From Periplaneta americana (lineage: Eukaryota; Arthropoda; Insecta; Blattodea; Blattidae), in NCBI RefSeq assembly GCF_040183065.1, contig NC_091119.1, positions 100,745,774 through 100,809,773 on the forward strand: a stretch of 64,000 nucleotides of DNA, read 5' to 3'. How positions within the stretch are numbered: position 1 is the stretch's first letter; every line of letters begins with the position of its first letter. Below, piece by piece: positions 16,329 through 62,142 of this stretch. A program made the position numbers and the translations under genes. The notes under the pieces were generated by a model. It was given only the letters and a program-made list of their open reading frames with translations, was not told the origin of the DNA and ran no database searches.

Positions 16329-16776
16329 AGTATCAGTTTGTATGTCCACGAATTTATACAATGAGGACGACTGCTGTAAAAACTGACATTAAAATGCTTG
16401 TGAAATGATTCACAGCCATTTGTTGTGCGAGAGGTCGATGCAGCCATGGCTGCCCATACAGTGGAAGGGAAAACTGCATCTTCGGAGATGTACGTTTCTA
16501 GTAAATAATCTGCAAATTTCTCAAGTCTTGTATCTATCGGCTCGTGACCAGAATATTGTACGAAATGGAAATATAAAAATTGGAAATTTATCTTTTGAAG
16601 AGGTGGAGAAGTTCAAATATCTGGGAGCAACAGTAACAAATATAAATGATACTCGGGAGGAAATTAAACAGAGAATAAATATGGGAAATGCCTGTTATTA
16701 TTCGGTTGAGAAACTTTTATCATCCAGTCTGCTGTCGAAAAATCTGAAAGTTAGAATTTATAAAACAGTTATATTA

Positions 16777-19077
16777 CACTGTACAGCATGAAAAATGCCC
16801 TTTACATGAAAACATGTGTGTCTTGTATATTTATGGCTGGAAATAACGAATCTGTACTCGGTTTTTGCCTAAGACGAACCATTTTCCAAAAAATCCAAAA
16901 TTTAGTATTTTATGTATTTCCTCGATAATATCGCTATGTTTCCTTAATTTAAATTATTTTTCGAATATCCTGCTTCTTCTGTCAAACATTTTCAGTGCAG
17001 GGATAGATTTAGACACATTTAGAAATATGTATCTACATCAATAATTCACTGCCAGGTTGATCATACCTTAATTCCAGCATTTTAAATGTAATTTTTTGTT
17101 TCCATTCACCACGTGATACTGCTCATTGAAAGTGCTGTTTATGGAGTACTGTTACGTGTGAAGTACTAATGTTGTAAGGCCTAAGGACACAGTGAACTAC
17201 ATTCAATGCATTATGTCTCGTCAATGTAAAAATAAGCCTGACTTATTTTGTTATGTGTGTGGCGAAGTTACATTCAAGACTCAACAATGTAGCTTGTCGC
17301 CATTGGTTAGAAATGCATATGACTTGTACTTTGGATGCAGAGTTGGAGATCAGGATAAGTCTTGGGCTCCACATATATGCTGCAATTCATGCTCCAGGAA
17401 TCTGAGAAAGTGGTTACAAGGAAAACGTAGCGCAATGAAATTTGGTGTACCTATGGTTTGGCGCGAACCAAAAGACCACATAACGGATTGTTACTTTTGT
17501 TTGACAGATGTTAGGGGTTCACGCCCAAATCCAAGCACTCTATGCGGTATCCAAACATACCCTCCGCTATGCGACCAGTTTCTCATTATGAAGACCTTCC
17601 TGTACCTACAGCTCCAGATAAATATACTCTTGATTCAGAGGAAGACACTTCAGATGCCCGATGCGGTCAAGATCCAGATTTTCAACCCTCTCCATCTATG
17701 ACATGTGTACATCATGAAATAAAACAGGGAGAGCTTAACGATCTTGTGCGGGACTTAAAACTCTCTCAAACATATGCAGAATTACTGGGTTCTATGCTAC
17801 AAGGTTGGAATCTGTTAGATAAAGATGTAAAAATTACTTCATTTAGAAGACGACAAAGCAATTTTGGGCACTATTTTGCGGAGAAAGAAGGCATTATTTA
17901 TTGCTGTGATGTGAATGGGTTATTTCAGGCATTGGGACATGAACACATTGTAGGAGACTGGCGCCTGTTTATTGACTCTTCCAAACGTAGTCTAAAGGCA
18001 GTACTCCTCCATATAGGCAATGTTTTCCCCTCTGTTCCTATAGCATATAATGCTGTAAATACCAAGGAAACATATGAGGTAATGAGTGCTATATTAAAAT
18101 TAATTGACTACTCTACATTCAAATGGCACATTTGCGGAGACTTAAAAGTTATTGGGATATTAACAGGCATGCAACAATGATACACTAAATTCTGCTGCTT
18201 CCTATGTGAATGGAATATTCGTGACAAAAAAAGTCACTACATCCGTAAACAGTGGCCTCCACGACAAAACTACATTCCTGGCACCAAAAACATATCTCAT
18301 GAACCACTTGTGAATCCGCAATATGTCTTTCTTCCACCATTGCACATTAAACTTGGTTTAATGAAAATTTTTGTAAAAGCGCTGGACAGAGAAGGGTTAG
18401 CCTTCTTGTATCTCAGAAACAAATTCAAAAGTTTAAGTGAGGTAAAGGTAAAAGAAGGGGTTTTTATTGGCCCACAAATTAAATCAGTCATGCACGACGA
18501 GACTTTGAAAATAAACTATCAGAAGGAAAAAAAGCAGCCTGGCAGGCATTTAAATCAGTATGTTCAAGTTTCCTTGGAAACGAGAAAGCTGAAAACTATG
18601 AAGATCTTGTTCGTGACATGGTGAAATGCTTTCGTGTTATAGGCTGCAATATGTCTTTAAAACTACACTTTTTGGACTCACATCTAGATTTTTTCCCTCA
18701 AAACCTGGGTACAGTTAGTGTTGAGCAAGGCGAAAGCTTCCACCAGGACATTGCTATGTTTGAAAAGCGCTTCAGTGGACGATGGAATGGAAGTATGCTA
18801 GCTGAATATTGTTCATCTATTATCAGGGACACTCCACCAGATGCCTACAAGCGGAAACGGCCAAAAAAATCATTTTAGTGTATGTGTTTTCCGTAATGAG
18901 TGTCACTGTTAATTTTCTCTCTGACCAATTTGTATAAATATGAAAAGCGGGTCTCCTAAGAAAACGGTACGTGATGGACCATTTTGGTTTTCAGATATGA
19001 ATCAAGCACCTTTTGTTTATACAGAATCACATACTTTCATCTAAAGGGCAGACACAAAGTTCAAATTTGTTGTACGG
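16777..19077 (+). mobile_element. 2.3-kb TIR DNA transposon carrying an uncharacterised transposase-like gene
   Basis: The left end is CACTGTACAGCATG and the right end (reverse complement) is CCGTACAACA. After an indel of about 9 bp the two ends match again over 23 bp at about 20 positions (16795-16817 against the complement of about 19027-19050, starting TGCCCTTTA). Outside lies TATTA on both sides (16772-16776, 19078-19082), a 5-bp duplication. Uninterrupted RTE copies elsewhere in the window read straight through this point. Its only gene is the pseudogene at 17192-18878, which fills most of it. Confidence 0.82.
17192..18878 (+). pseudogene. Transposase-like gene of an uncharacterised arthropod family
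   Basis: The N terminus is zinc-binding-like: MSRQCKNKPDLFCYVCGEV, GDQDKSWAPHICCNSCSRNL, a WREP motif and HITDCYFCLTDV. It shifts frame near 17540 into ORF 17542-18180, with DVNGLFQALGHEHIVGDWRL, FIDSSKRSLKAVLLHIGNVF and WHICGDLKVIGILTGMQ. A TGA (18178-18180) interrupts before KFCCFLCEWNIRDK and PLHIKLGLMKIFVKALDRE. A second shift near 18510 leads to the C terminus with SVEQGESFHQDIAMFEKRFS and the stop at 18878. The Asp of FIDSS, the Asp of CGDLK and the Glu of EQGESFHQD could be a DDE triad with a CxxC insertion; that is inference. From memory, near relatives are annotated only as uncharacterised proteins in many arthropods. Confidence 0.72.
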
Positions 19078-19552
19078 TATTATCGGTTGTTCTTTATGGT
19101 TGTGAAACTTGGACTCTCACTTTGAGAGAGGAACAGAGACTACGGGTGTTTGAGAATAAGATTCTTAGGAAAATATCTGGGGCTAAGAGGGATGAAGTTA
19201 CAGGAGAATGGAGAAAGTTACAGAACACAGAACTGCACGCATTGTATTCTTCACCTGACATAATTAGGAACATTAAATCCAGACGTTTGAGATGGGCAGG
19301 GCATGTAGCACGTATGGGCGAATCCAGAAATGCATATAGAGTGTTAGTTGGGAGGCCGGAGGGAAAAAGATCTTTAGGGAGGCCGAGACGTAGATGGGAA
19401 AATAATATTAAAATGGATTTGAGGGAGGTGGGATGTGATGATAGAGAATGGATTAATTTTGCTCAGGATAGGGACCAATGGCGGGCTTATGTGAGAGCGG
19501 CAATGAACCTCCGGGTTCCTTAAAAGCCAGTAAGTAAGTAAGTATCTATCGG

Positions 19553-21528: not shown

Positions 21529-21731
21529 GCGTATTCCGAATCTCACCGGTGAGCAATCCGATTGCATCACGGTGTTCCGAATTCCACCGATGACGTCATT
21601 GATGCTCCACCGGTGTCGCACCGGTGTCATCAACATGCAGAGGTGGCGGCAGTCTCCATCAGCCGCCATCAGTGAATCTGATTGGTTCTTGTATAGGGCG
21701 GGAATTAGCAGACGAATGACATCGTGCACTG

Positions 21732-22661
21732 TTGTGTCATGGCGGTGTGTTCTGCTTTAGTTCTGCTGTATTGTTCGCTTTAGAATATGCCATTAGGAAA
21801 GTTCAGGATAACAGGCAGGGTTTGGAATTGAACGGGTTACATCAGCTTCTTGTCTATGCGGATGACGTGAATATGTTAGGAGAAAATCCACAAGCGATTA
21901 GGGAAAACACGGGAATTTTACTGGAAGCAAGTAAAGCGATCGGTTTGGAAGTAAATCCCGAAAAGACAAAGTATATGATTATGTCTCGTGACCAGAATAT
22001 TGTACGAAACGGAAATATAAAAATTGGAGATTTATCCTTCGAAGGGGTGGAAAAATTCAAATATCTTGGAGCAACAGTAACAAATATAAATGACACTCGG
22101 GAGGAAATTAAACGCAGAATAAATATGGGAAATGCGTGTTATTATTCGGTTGAGAAGCTTTTATCATCTAGTCTGCTGTCAAAAAATCTGAAAGTTAGAA
22201 ATTATAAAACAGTTATATTACCGGTTGTTCTGTATGGTTGTGAAACTTGGACTCTCACTCTGAGAGAGGAACATAGGTTAAGGGTGTCTGAGAATAAGGT
22301 GCTTAGGAAAATATTTGGGGCTAAGCGGGATGAAGTTACAGGAGAATGGAGAAAGTTACACAACGCAGAACTGCACGCATTGTATTCTTCACCTGACATA
22401 ATTAGGAACATTAAATCCAGACGTTTGAGATGGGCAGGGCATGTAGCACGTATGGGCGAATCCAGAAATGCATATAGTGTGTTAGTTGGGAGACCGGAGG
22501 AAAAAAGACCTTTAGGGAAGCCGAGACGTAGATGGGAAGATAATATTAAAATGGATTTGAGGGAGGTGGGGTATGATGATAGAGACTGGATTAATCTTGC
22601 ACAGGATAGGGACCGATGGCGGGCTTATGTGAGGGCGGCAATGAACCTTCGGGTTCCTTAA
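21732..22661 (+). CDS. RTE reverse transcriptase C-terminal ORF, 309 aa
   Basis: The first 15 residues come from flanking DNA, so the ATG at 21732 is fortuitous. The retrotransposon part begins near residue 16 ([19 protein letters not shown]). [18 protein letters not shown] carries the catalytic YADD. Then follow [76 protein letters not shown] and a basic tail [20 protein letters not shown]. The endonuclease, fingers and motif A of the RT are absent, so the product could not retrotranspose by itself. Whether it is expressed cannot be told. Confidence 0.8.
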
Positions 22662-28579: not shown

Positions 28580-31257
28580 ATTAAAGAAACCGTTCTCTTC
28601 TAGAACGTTAGAGGAGAGGGTTGAAATTAAGAATTTAGGTAGACCCACGCCTTACTTAACCATTGTTCAGCAAGCGATAGTAAATCTCGTTCTTATAATA
28701 GACAATTTAAAAGAGAAATATACGAACGATATGAATGGTTGTGTGGATGTGAAATTCGAACCGCTTTATTTTGTTTCCCTTGCTTACTGTTTGGGAGTAC
28801 TAATTCCTGGTCGAGGGGTGGCGTGAAGGATCTTGGACACTTGTATGAATATGCTAAGAAACATTCACAGAGTAAGAAGCACATTAATAATGCCGTCGAT
28901 CTCAGTGCCCTAGGCAGAGTCAACATTGCAGTTAGGCTTAGTCGCGCATACCAGGAATCCATAGAGAAGCATAATCAACAAGTAAAGGGTGCGTCAGAAA
29001 GAACATATGGATTTCAAACTATCGATACGCAACGAGGAGAGAGATATAGTGAGGGGGACCACGACTGTTGGGTCAGCCATAGAATGCAGTTTCAGTTGAG
29101 AATATGGTGTTGGTCTGGTGTACAACGTGCTTTCATCGTAGATACATTTTTGAAAAATGAAGAGTCTGTGATCGCCACTCAGGACTCATTTCGACATCGG
29201 ATTTCACGCTAGGATTCCAACTCTGAATACAATTTTGCGGTGGGTGGCATCATTTCATATCACAGGTTCAACATTAAAGAAGAAATCACCCGGACGAAAT
29301 TCTATTGCACTGAGATTGTCCGAGGCTACGGTAAGATCTCGCGCCCTGCGACTTCTTTCTTTGGGACCATTTGAAGGCGTAAGTTTGTAAACATCGATCA
29401 CATACACTGGACGAACTGAAGACAGCGATTCGTGAAGAAATCGTGGCAATTGCACCAGCTATGACTGTGAAAGTGATGGCGAACATCAGAAAACGCCTCG
29501 ATGCCTGTATTGAAAGCCAAGGACATCATATGGATGATGTTGTTTTCCATAAATAAACTGCATGTATTGGTGAATATGTTGATAACAATAAATTTTTGAT
29601 TTGATGAATCTTTACAATTTTCTTGCCATGTGAAATCCATCCGTTCTTTCTGACGCACCCTGTAGAAAGAAATAGATATATTTTATCTAGAATTATAGAT
29701 TGCATAAAGTTCTGTGGTGTTTTTGAACTGGCATTGCGCGGCCACGATGAAACAGAAAGTTCCGAAAATCCGGGAATATTTCGTGGTCTTGTTGACTTAG
29801 TCGGTAGCATTGACAGTGCTGTGAAGGAACAGTACCGTATCCAAAGGCACCTCTAAAATTATTCAGAACGAGCTGTTGGAATGCATGTTAGAGTGTGTCA
29901 TGACAAAATCAAGAAAGAACTGCATCAATCTGACTTCATAGCCCTCATGGCAGATGACACTACAGACGTTTCTGAGCATTTACAAACAGTTTTAGTGTTC
30001 AGATAGGAACTCGAAGGAAAAGTATACTAGCGATTTTGGGTTTTTTCAATCCTGAAGGCCAAGGAGCCACAGAAATTTCTGAATGCATCCTTAAGGAATT
30101 AGAAGTTTTTGACACCGATGCCGCCCGTAATAAAATAATTGCTCAGACAGATGATGGAGCATCAGTTATGCGGGGTTTAGTTAATGGGGTACAGTCCAAA
30201 ATAAAAGAACATTTTCCTTTGGCACATTATGTCTACTGTTACGCTCACCAATCCAACTTGATAATGGAAAGAGCTGCGTCACAAAACCAGTCGGCAAGAA
30301 TATTTTTTTGCAATCTCTCTGCATTCCCAGCTTTTTTCTCATGGTCGCCACAACGTGTAGCTGCATTAGAAAATGTGACATCGCGACGCATGAGGTAGTT
30401 CGGCTACTATGTGGAATTTCAAGTCGAGAACCGTCAATTCTGTGTATGAGAATTTGGAACCATTGAAAGAGTGTTTTTCTGAGCTAGAAAAATCCTACTC
30501 CAAGAACACAGTTCATGAAGCCTAAGCTCTTCGCCGTAATTTAGAAGATAGTGAATTTATGTTCTGGTTGAAGTTCTTCCATAAAGTTATGTACCATGTC
30601 GATATTCTCTACAACCAAATTCAGTCTAGGCAAATCGACACCTTAAACGTAAAACATAATGTAAAAAATTTTATCACTGCAGTTGAACATGTTCGAAATG
30701 AAGTGAATGACATCATGACGGGAAAAACGGATAGTGAAAGCAAGCGTCGACGAATTGAATCATGCCGTGTACCGGATGCAAAGGAAGTCTGTGATCGCAT
30801 TACTACAGAAACACGCGATCGTTTTGAGAAAACAAGTCATCTTAATGCAGCAAAACTTCTGGATTCTGCGAACTTCGAAGAATTTTCTAGGAAATTTCCT
30901 CAAAATATCCTTAATCTGGCAGTAGAGAACTACCCTATGTTAAACAAGGAAATACTACACACCGAACTCTCTGTGCTGTATGAAAGACCAGACTTTAAGA
31001 ATATTGATGGCGCCGTCCCTCTTCTTCAGCTTATTTATAGTAGCAATCTTCAGAATACATTTAGCGAAATCACAAACCTCCTTAAAATAATAGTGAAAAT
31101 ACCCATGAAAACAGCCGAACCCGAAAGATGTTTTTCAACTTTAAACAGGATTAAAACTTTTGTCAGAAATTCTATGCACCAAGAACGGTTAACAGCTCTT
31201 TCTATGCTTTCAATAGAGAAAAAACCTATTAAATGGGAGATTTCAATACCAAAGTGA
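28580..31257 (+). pseudogene. hAT transposase (TTF/ZMYM1-like) with multiple disruptions
   Basis: The order matches hAT transposases of the ZMYM1-like group. LEERVEIKNLGRPTPYLTIV starts it, then a shift leads to the TTF-type zinc finger CGCEIRTALFCFPCLLFGST...SKKHINN (28740-28900) and the linker GRVNIAVRLSRAYQESIEKH. After the mariner it continues RNRYILSRIIDCIKFCGVFE, RGHDETESSENPGIFRGLV, the RNase H-like MADDTTDVSEHLQTVLVF, AQTDDGASVMRGLVNGVQSK and HYVYCYAHQSNLIMERA. Stops follow to about 30558, then ORF 30559-31257. The C terminus KIPMKTAEPERCFSTLNRIK...ERLTALSMLSIE is the hAT dimerisation domain. Confidence 0.9.
28985..29662 (+). mobile_element. Internally deleted mariner/Tc1-superfamily element inside the hAT gene
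   Basis: The TIRs AGGGTGCGTCAGAAAGAAC and its complement at the right end match over about 29 bp. TA flanks both sides (28983-28984, 29663-29664), and the hAT reading frame resumes right after. It keeps the transposase N-terminal HTH region (QRAFIVDTFLKNEESVIATQ, TGSTLKKKSPGR, in shifted frames) and the C terminus TLDELKTAIREEIVAIAPAM, KVMANIRKRLDACIES, HHMDDVVFHK with its stop. The DDD/DDE catalytic middle is deleted. Confidence 0.92.
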
Positions 31258-59950: not shown

Positions 59951-60859
59951 TTGCTCTAGAGTATGCCATTAGGAAAGTCCAGGATAACAGAGAGGGTTTA
60001 GAATTGAACGGGTTACATCAGCTGCTTGTCTATGCGGATGACGTGAATATGTTAGGAGAAAATCCACAAACGATTAGGAAAAACACGGGAATTTTACTGG
60101 AAGCAAGTAAAGAGATAGGTCTGGAAGTAAATCCCGAAAAGACAAAGTATATGATTATGTCTCGTGACGAGAATATTGTACGCAATGGAAATATAAAAAT
60201 TGGAAATTTATCTTTTGAAAAGGTGGTGAAGTTCAAATATCTTGGAGCAACAGTAACAAATATAAATGCTACTCGGGAGGAAATTAAACACAGGATAAAT
60301 ATGGGAAATGCCTGTTATTATTCGGTTGAGAAGCTTCTATCATCCAGTCTGCTGTCAAAAAATCTGAAAGTTAGAATTTAAAAAACAATTATATTACCGG
60401 TTGTTCTTTATGGTTGTGAAACTTGGACTCTCACTTTGAGAGAGGAACATAAGTTAAGGGTGTTTGAGAATAAGGTGCTTAGAAAAATATTTGGGGCTAA
60501 GAGGGATGAAGTTACAGGAGAATGGAGAAAGTTACACAACACAGAACTGCACGCTTTGTATTCTTCACCTGACATAATTAGGAACATTAAATCCACACTT
60601 TTGAGATGGCCTGGGCATGTAGCATGTATGGGCGAATCCAGAAATGCATAAAGAGTGTTAGTTGGGAGGCCGGAGGGAAAAAGATCTTTAGGGAGGCCGA
60701 GACGCAGATGGGAAGATAATATTAAAATGGATTTGAGGGAGGTGGGATATGATGATTAGAGAGAATGGATTAATCTTGCTCAGGATAGGGACCGATGGGG
60801 GGCCTATGTGTGGGCGGCAATGAACCTCCGGGTTCCTTAAAAGCCAATAAGTAAGTAAG
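59951..60859 (+). mobile_element. Younger RTE copy inserted in the older RTE
   Basis: TATTCTTTTGAGGA at 59937-59950 and 60860-60873 is a perfect 14-bp duplication made of the older RTE sequence. It reads [40 protein letters not shown], to a stop at 60379 (AAAGTTAGAATT then TAA), then [33 protein letters not shown], and after a stop near 60650 [19 protein letters not shown] and NLRVP. The tail is CCAATAAGTAAGTAAG. Confidence 0.94.
60436..60651 (+). pseudogene. RTE C-terminal fragment of the nested copy
   Basis: [40 protein letters not shown] and GHVACMGESRNA, ending where TATAGA became TAAAGA. A second break (an extra base near 60758, GATTAGAGAG) lies downstream before NLRVP. Confidence 0.75.
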
Positions 60860-62142
60860 TATTCTTTTGAGGAAATTAACTCCATATACAGATAAAATTA
60901 TCGGAGACCATCAGTGTGGTTTTAGGCGAAATAGATCGACTATTGATCAGGTTTTTTATATTCCACAGATATTGGAGAAAAATGGGAGTATAAGGGTAGA
61001 GTACATAAGTTATTTATAGATTTCAAAAAGACATATGATTCGGTTAAGAGAGAAGATTTATGTAATATTCTTATTGAATTTGGTATTCCCAAGAAACTAG
61101 TTCGATTAATTAAAATGTGTCTCAGTAAAACATATGGCAGGGTCCCTATAAGCCAATTTCTGTCTGAGGCTTTTTCAATTCACTGCGGGCTAAAGCAAAG
61201 AGATGCACTACCACCTTTGATTTTTAACTTAGCTCTAGAATATGTCATTAGGAAAGTCCAGGAAAACACAGAGGGTTCGGAATTGAACGAGTTACATCAG
61301 CTGCTTGTTTATGCGAATGGCATGAATATGTTAGGATAAAATCCACAAACTATTAGGGAAAACACGGGAATTTTACTTGAAGCGAGTAATGAGATAGGTC
61401 TGGAAGTAAATCCCGAGAAAATAAAGTAAGTGAATATGTATCGTGATCAGAACGTAAATTAGCACGAAATGGAAATATAAAAATAGAATTGGAAATTTAT
61501 CCTTTGAAGAGCTGGAAAAATTCAAATATCTTGGAGCAACAGTAACAAATATAAATGATAATCGGGGAGGAAGTTAAACGCAGAATAAATCGGGAAATGT
61601 CTGCTATTATTCGGTTGAGAATCTCGTCATCAAGTCTACTTAAAAAAACTGAAAGGTAGAATTTATAAAACAGCTATATCACCGGTTTTTCAGTATGATG
61701 TGAAAATTGGACTCTCACTTCGAGAGAGGAACAGAGATTAAGGATGTTTGAGAATAAGGTGCTTAGGAAAATATTTGAGGCTAAGAGGGATGACGTTACA
61801 GGAAAATGGAGAAAGTTACATAACGCAAAGTGCACGCCTTGCATTCTTCGCCTAACATAACTGAAACAAATTCAGACATTTCAGATGCGTTGAGCATGTA
61901 ACACGTAGGCCTATGGGTGAATCCAGAAATTCATATAGAGTGTTAGTTTGAAGACCTGAGGGGAGAAAGACCTTTGGGGAGGTCGAGATGTAGATGGGAG
62001 GATAATAGTAAAATGGATTTCAGGGAGGTGAGATATGATGGTAGAGACTGGATTAATTTTGCTCAGAATAGGGACCGATGTCGGGTTTATGTGAGGGCAG
62101 CAATGAACCTCCGGGGTCTCTAAAAGTCATTTGTAATTTATT

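Follow-up and report, generated by a model that had tools for sequence, protein, structure and literature searches.

A 2,303-bp transposon nested in an RTE-like retrotransposon copy is very probably a decayed member of the Chapaev3 group

What kind of mobile element occupies positions 16777-19079 of a 64,000-nt stretch of genomic DNA (hereafter the window), where terminal inverted repeats (TIRs) enclose a gene whose relatives carry no functional names? The first-pass annotation had placed it in an undescribed or poorly described superfamily of DDE-type transposases, with a 5-bp TATTA target-site duplication (TSD). We found that the element agrees with Chapaev3 as described in print (PMC4079192), and we regard the interval, with high confidence, as what remains of an autonomous cut-and-paste DNA transposon of Chapaev3 type (CMC group), now decayed. 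The assignment is a probable one made by published description, and a new transposon superfamily is very probably not what the locus holds.

The TIR element is real, spans 2,303 bp (window 16777-19079) and is inserted in a copy of an RTE-like retrotransposon (Table 1). Of the bounds first proposed, 16777..19077, the start stands and the 3' end moves to 19079. To call its TIRs imperfect was fair, as the outer 12-bp part matches at 9 of 12 positions in the window copy and the inner 28-nt part, which is shifted, at 82%. At the 5' end, the start pattern CACT(G/T)TAC recurs in 27 of the 30 genomic copies that we fetched.

Table 1. Features of the transposon and its target site in the window
Feature	Position	Strand	Remarks
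5' target-site duplication TTA	16774..16776	+	A before it; single copy in empty RTE relatives
Outer 5' TIR	16777..16788	+	starts CACTGTACA
Inner 5' TIR segment	16796..16823	+	inverted partner 19023-19050, 28 nt, 82%
Transposase pseudogene	17213..18878	+	ATG at 17213, three frames, in-frame TGA 18178-18180
N-terminal cysteine-rich region (CxxC, CCxxC, HxxxCxxC)	17246..17500	+	candidate 'Chapa' zinc domain
FIDSSK, putative first catalytic Asp	17968..17985	+	D259 in 120/120
CGDLK, putative second catalytic Asp	18133..18147	+	D313 in 120/120
FCCFLC, C(2)C motif	18190..18207	+	C332 and C335 in 120/120
PPLHIK, LH motif	18334..18351	+	L380 and H381 in 120/120
KLHFLDSHLD, H(4)H motif	18660..18689	+	H489 and H494 in 120/120
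EQGESFHQD, putative catalytic Glu (second E)	18723..18749	+	E511 in 120/120
Inner 3' TIR segment	19023..19050	+	partner of 16796..16823
Outer 3' TIR	19068..19079	+	ends GTACGGTA in window copy; GTG in 10/13 same-site copies
3' target-site duplication TTA	19080..19082	+	T after it

A search of the assembly (3.23 Gb, 91 contigs), in which 40 of 809 candidates were scored, returned at least 45 rows at 94-100% identity, more than chance would give, and we fetched the best 30 copies with 1.5 kb of flank. These 30 copies represent eight insertion sites, namely the window's own site (group 1: L001-L012 and L030, 13 of the 30 copies), a second repeated site (group 2: L013, L015-L018, L020-L024 and L026, 11 copies) and the single-copy sites L014, L019, L025, L027, L028 and L029; 24 of the 30 derive from just two insertions, spread via duplication of host DNA. 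L014 shares about 97-98% identity with each of the independent copies L019, L025, L027 and L028. Within group 1, a 5' flank of at least 1.1 kb is common to all 13 loci and a 3' flank of at least 1.1 kb to 12 of 13, with L011 sharing about 0.46 kb. On this 3' side, 10 of 12 companions match nearly to the end of the 1.5-kb flank, beyond the RTE tail, while the match ends after about 1.16 kb in L005 and near the RTE tail in L011. Given these long common flanks, we attribute group 1 to duplications of larger segments rather than to separate transpositions; most likely, a single transposition was followed by duplication of the surrounding DNA, which multiplied the window copy and the 12 others at its site.

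Several further observations concern the surroundings of these copies. The RTE copy with its inner transposon recurs as 13 similar segments on many contigs, most of which share flank past the RTE tail, and an 86-bp tandem repeat lies upstream of L001. Both pieces of one copy (G000, C12:11666046-11668419) are listed at 100% identity to the window copy, with ~72 bp of the query matched twice, which suggests that the duplication is very recent and contains a short internal repeat. The host repeat that carries the group 2 insertion recurs both filled and empty (empty relatives L047-L054), in clusters on contigs C3, C4, C6, C11, C14 and C15 with a spacing, taken from scored matches only, of ~40-300 kb, as if the transposon were carried by a large unit in tandem or clustered arrangement. 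L013 has a long CTTATC-type array in one flank.

Aligning the flanks of genomic copies, the check that the first-pass annotation had proposed, fixed the TIR ends and contradicted the 5-bp duplication in favor of a 3-bp TWA. When the window copy is taken alone, a 5-bp TATTA and a 3-bp TTA predict an identical empty site; the two are told apart because 10 of the 13 copies at the window's site end in CGGTG followed directly by TTA, and by the other insertion sites, so that the duplication is read as TTA in an A-TTA-T target. Three copies (L001, L008 and L012) end in CGGTA followed by TTA. Termini of the form 5'-CAC...GTG-3' are present in the element family, and the window copy by itself reads GTA at its 3' end, its final base having mutated from GTG, a change that L008 and L012 also carry. 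TATTA appears to flank the window copy because that copy ends in GTA, and with its last base recognized as mutated the 5-bp duplication was dropped; a point mutation at a transposon end can thus mimic a longer target duplication. Among the eight insertion sites of the 30 copies, five show a perfect A-TWA...TWA-T arrangement (groups 1 and 2, L014, L019 and L027), two have one mismatch between the duplication copies (L025, TAT/TAA; L028, TTA/TAA), and L029, which has lost some of its terminal bases, is unscorable. The seven scorable sites agree on the A-TWA-T rule, as do the empty relatives of four sites.

The reported interruption of the RTE-like copy, with flanks that rejoin across the element, was borne out by uninterrupted relatives of the target, six of which lie in the window. 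Five of these six read TATATTA gap-free across the join, with a single TSD copy (43959-43803, 60317-60473, 22141-22297, 8408-8254 and 47291-47135), and the sixth (61606-61757) is more diverged; the base following TTA is C in the empty relatives and T in the filled site. At three further sites, for each of which 8 loci out of 40 listed rows were compared, empty relatives carry a single TSD copy at 8/8 loci for L025, at 8/8 for the L013 group (group 2) and at 2/8 for L028, whose other six relatives are more divergent and lack two or three bases across the join. The name RTE is the earlier reader's label. A related stretch of the window (21720-22658) matches the reverse transcriptase profile RVT_1 at 8.1e-08, and positions 18975-19520, which adjoin the element on its 3' side, had no profile match.

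The element was said to hold a single gene, and it does: no further ORF of at least 80 codons lies wholly within it, and the reading frame of this gene shifts twice and meets one in-frame TGA. The peptide motifs named in the first pass are all found in the window copy, which retains every motif of the set (D, D, C(2)C, LH, H(4)H and E). This copy is dead, as the enzyme cannot be made from its broken gene. L014 keeps 529 aa open in one stretch, more than any other of the 30 copies, and its protein as a query matched 2,141 proteins at E <= 0.001. In an alignment of the closest 120 of these 2,141 homologues (A1), which are 51-63% identical to the query, so that invariance is weaker evidence than it would be among distant relatives, D259, D313, C332, C335, L380, H381, H489, H494 and E511 are each invariant (120/120). 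E289 and E521 are likewise invariant, E508 is found in 119/120, and E511 was picked as the putative catalytic Glu because it follows H(4)H. The N-terminal residues C58, C61, H90, C94 and C97 are also conserved in 120/120 each. At motif level, the presence of D, D, C(2)C, H(4)H and E in all 120 homologues supports the earlier proposal of a putative DDE-type transposase with a zinc-type insertion.

Many among the best 120 of the 2,141 homologues sit on contigs of about 2-3 kb, which is the size of the element. For these 120, as for the best 120 of a second search, the Pfam column is blank and the few names read 'hypothetical' or 'uncharacterized', in keeping with the initial statement that relatives are not labeled as transposases; the family reaches beyond arthropods, given a homologue (P0083) named from Ranitomeya variabilis, a frog. 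No protein named Chapaev3 was found among the best 120 of 2,141 homologues or the best 120 of 2,267 in the second search, which likewise gave no named silkworm, monarch or bracovirus protein among its best 120, and a scan of viral contigs for the bracovirus copy of Garfield confirmed no relative. The genome itself, searched with homologue P0001 (78 of 25,104 candidates scored), gave at least 82 rows at 47-68% identity, from which we conclude that it holds several diverged families of this type; at least 7 rows, L014 among them, cover more than 500 residues without a stop. A single colinear exon is seen in the row C3:51585389-51587053, which spans P0001 residues 4-558 with a single TAG.

Profile searches were uninformative as to family. 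L014 gave nothing above the Pfam cut-off, the matches of Pfam and NCBIfam models to pieces of the window, to L014 and to homologues were all weak, and PDB sequence searches returned weak, unrelated entries. When 60 homologues were scanned singly, 27 Pfam families appeared at E <= 1 (best 25 of 27 listed), none of them convincing: the lowest E was that of zf-AD (0.0017, 2/60 homologues), followed by STI1-HOP_DP (0.0065) and EntA_Immun (0.0082) in one of 60 homologues each, with weak matches to RT_RNaseH (best E 0.031) and RT_RNaseH_2 (0.051) in 3/60 each and to RAG1_imp_bd (0.23) in 1/60. The N-terminal C/H pattern is conserved among homologues with only weak zf-AD and RAG1_imp_bd matches. A genome search with PF12940 (RAG1) matched nothing, but this profile was also silent in all 14 controls, which makes the result uninformative.

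Kapitonov and Jurka, in Repbase Reports of 2008, are said to be a source on the Chapaev3 group. Chapaev proper is the group with 4-bp duplications, unlike the 3 bp found here. PMC4079192 gives Chapaev as a whole TSDs of 3-4 bp and names as hallmarks of Chapaev3 the CAC/GTG termini, the motifs C(2)C, LH and H(4)H, and a TWA duplication between A and T, which is reported for every Chapaev3 element that the study examined. Our element family has CAC...GTG termini, a 3-bp TWA duplication with a 5' A and a 3' T, and a putative DDE triad with C(2)C, LH and H(4)H, present in 120/120 homologues and in the window copy; we filed it as Chapaev3 because these hallmarks can be read from its sequence. In its ends and duplication it resembles Garfield, Merrow and Conan (Chapaev3; Zhang et al. 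2014, PMC4079192), and in its transposase motifs the group at large as that source describes it. Its 2,303 bp and homologues of ~558 aa compare with 2,289-2,455 bp and about 554-562 aa for full-length Garfield and Merrow elements (Garfield_BM: 2,289 bp, 556 aa), while Conan elements differ in length at 1,865 and 3,363 bp (PMC4079192). Garfield and Merrow have two exons and the gene here apparently one, as do most Chapaev3 genes outside those two in the same account (PMC4079192). Chapaev proper has, according to the papers, CAC/GTG ends and CMC catalytic motifs, as the element does, and a Chapa-type N-terminal zinc domain, for which the cysteine-rich region here is a candidate; a complex N-terminal zinc finger is described for both Chapaev and Chapaev3 (PMC4411706). 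Among the literature matches listed there was no cockroach Chapaev report, the only 'Chapaev' match (PMC6327564) being without 'Periplaneta'. We consider the weight of these likenesses below, against other placements.

PIF/Harbinger elements are also known for 3-bp TWA duplications, as found here, and are recognized by a Harbinger-type transposase without CMC motifs. The CAC...GTG ends and the C(2)C, LH and H(4)H set are CMC features, no Harbinger-type Pfam match stands among the matches listed and the element has one gene only, so that a PIF/Harbinger-type element is barely conceivable and was rejected on motifs. For an element of the Transib/RAG1 type proper speak the 19 residues between D313 and C332 and the HxxxxH of H(4)H, both of which presumably equal those of RAG1. 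C(2)C and H(4)H between the second D and the E are shared with Transib, RAG1 and RAG-like proteins, in a pattern, C(2)C with H(3-4)H, that PMC12730594 gives as common to EnSpm, Mirage, Chapaev, Transib and RAG1. RAG-like elements, however, have 5-bp TSDs (PMC7204232) where this one has 3 bp, and here a single gene stands with no RAG2-like partner; we rejected Transib/RAG proper on its 5-bp duplication and assign it virtually no probability.

The undescribed superfamily with 5-bp duplications draws on the lack of a convincing match in Pfam, NCBIfam and PDB, on relatives that bear no functional names (best 120 of 2,141 and of 2,267) and on the TATTA that flanks both sides of the window copy, but the 3-bp TWA at other copies and sites and the sequence-readable Chapaev3 hallmarks of PMC4079192 make it extremely unlikely. 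Another reading, which we hold to be very improbable, is a sister lineage of Chapaev3 in the CMC/Transib clade, with the same motifs and duplication but outside the named group: for it counts that the homologue lists and the viral-contig scan gave no named Chapaev3 sequence, and against it that the A-TWA-T rule, the length and the motifs all coincide with Chapaev3, and that TWA was found in all Chapaev3 elements examined in PMC4079192. It is also very unlikely that we are dealing with a distinct sister lineage of Chapaev3, placed in the CMC/Transib/RAG1 clade and rich in copies and variety within one insect-like genome, that multiplied mainly as a passenger of other repeats (the RTE-containing duplicated segment and the clustered array-like repeat) and not by its own transposition. 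Chapaev3 itself has counts against it, namely the one-base difference between TSD copies at 2 of 8 sites, the C in place of T after TTA in empty relatives of the RTE site, the want of a convincing Pfam, NCBIfam or solved-structure match, homologue lists and a viral-contig scan that gave no protein of that name, and the two exons of Garfield and Merrow (PMC4079192) against apparently one here.

The family displays inverted ends, 3-bp duplications, many copies and conserved putative active-site residues. By analogy with known families, the Chapaev3-type transposase would be an RNase H-fold DDE enzyme in which the C(2)C and H(4)H residues may hold a zinc ion in an insertion before the catalytic Glu, and its N-terminal cysteine-rich part may help to bind the element ends. 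The encoded enzyme would excise the element at its CAC ends by DDE cut-and-paste and join it across a 3-bp stagger at ATWAT. One original insertion into the RTE copy, followed by copying together with the surrounding DNA, most likely gave the 13 loci.

Placing this locus in Chapaev3 takes away what had looked like a lead to a new transposon superfamily. It also suggests that most members of the unlabeled protein set (2,141 matches at E <= 0.001) are Chapaev3-type transposases for which Pfam has no model, and such a model would prevent their annotation as host genes. Apart from this family, L025:327-399 gave a tRNA-like match of 32 bits, close to the gathering score of 29, and positions 28643-31257 of the window likely hold the remains of a hAT transposon, with Dimer_Tnp_hAT matched at 3.5e-07 in 30526-31254.
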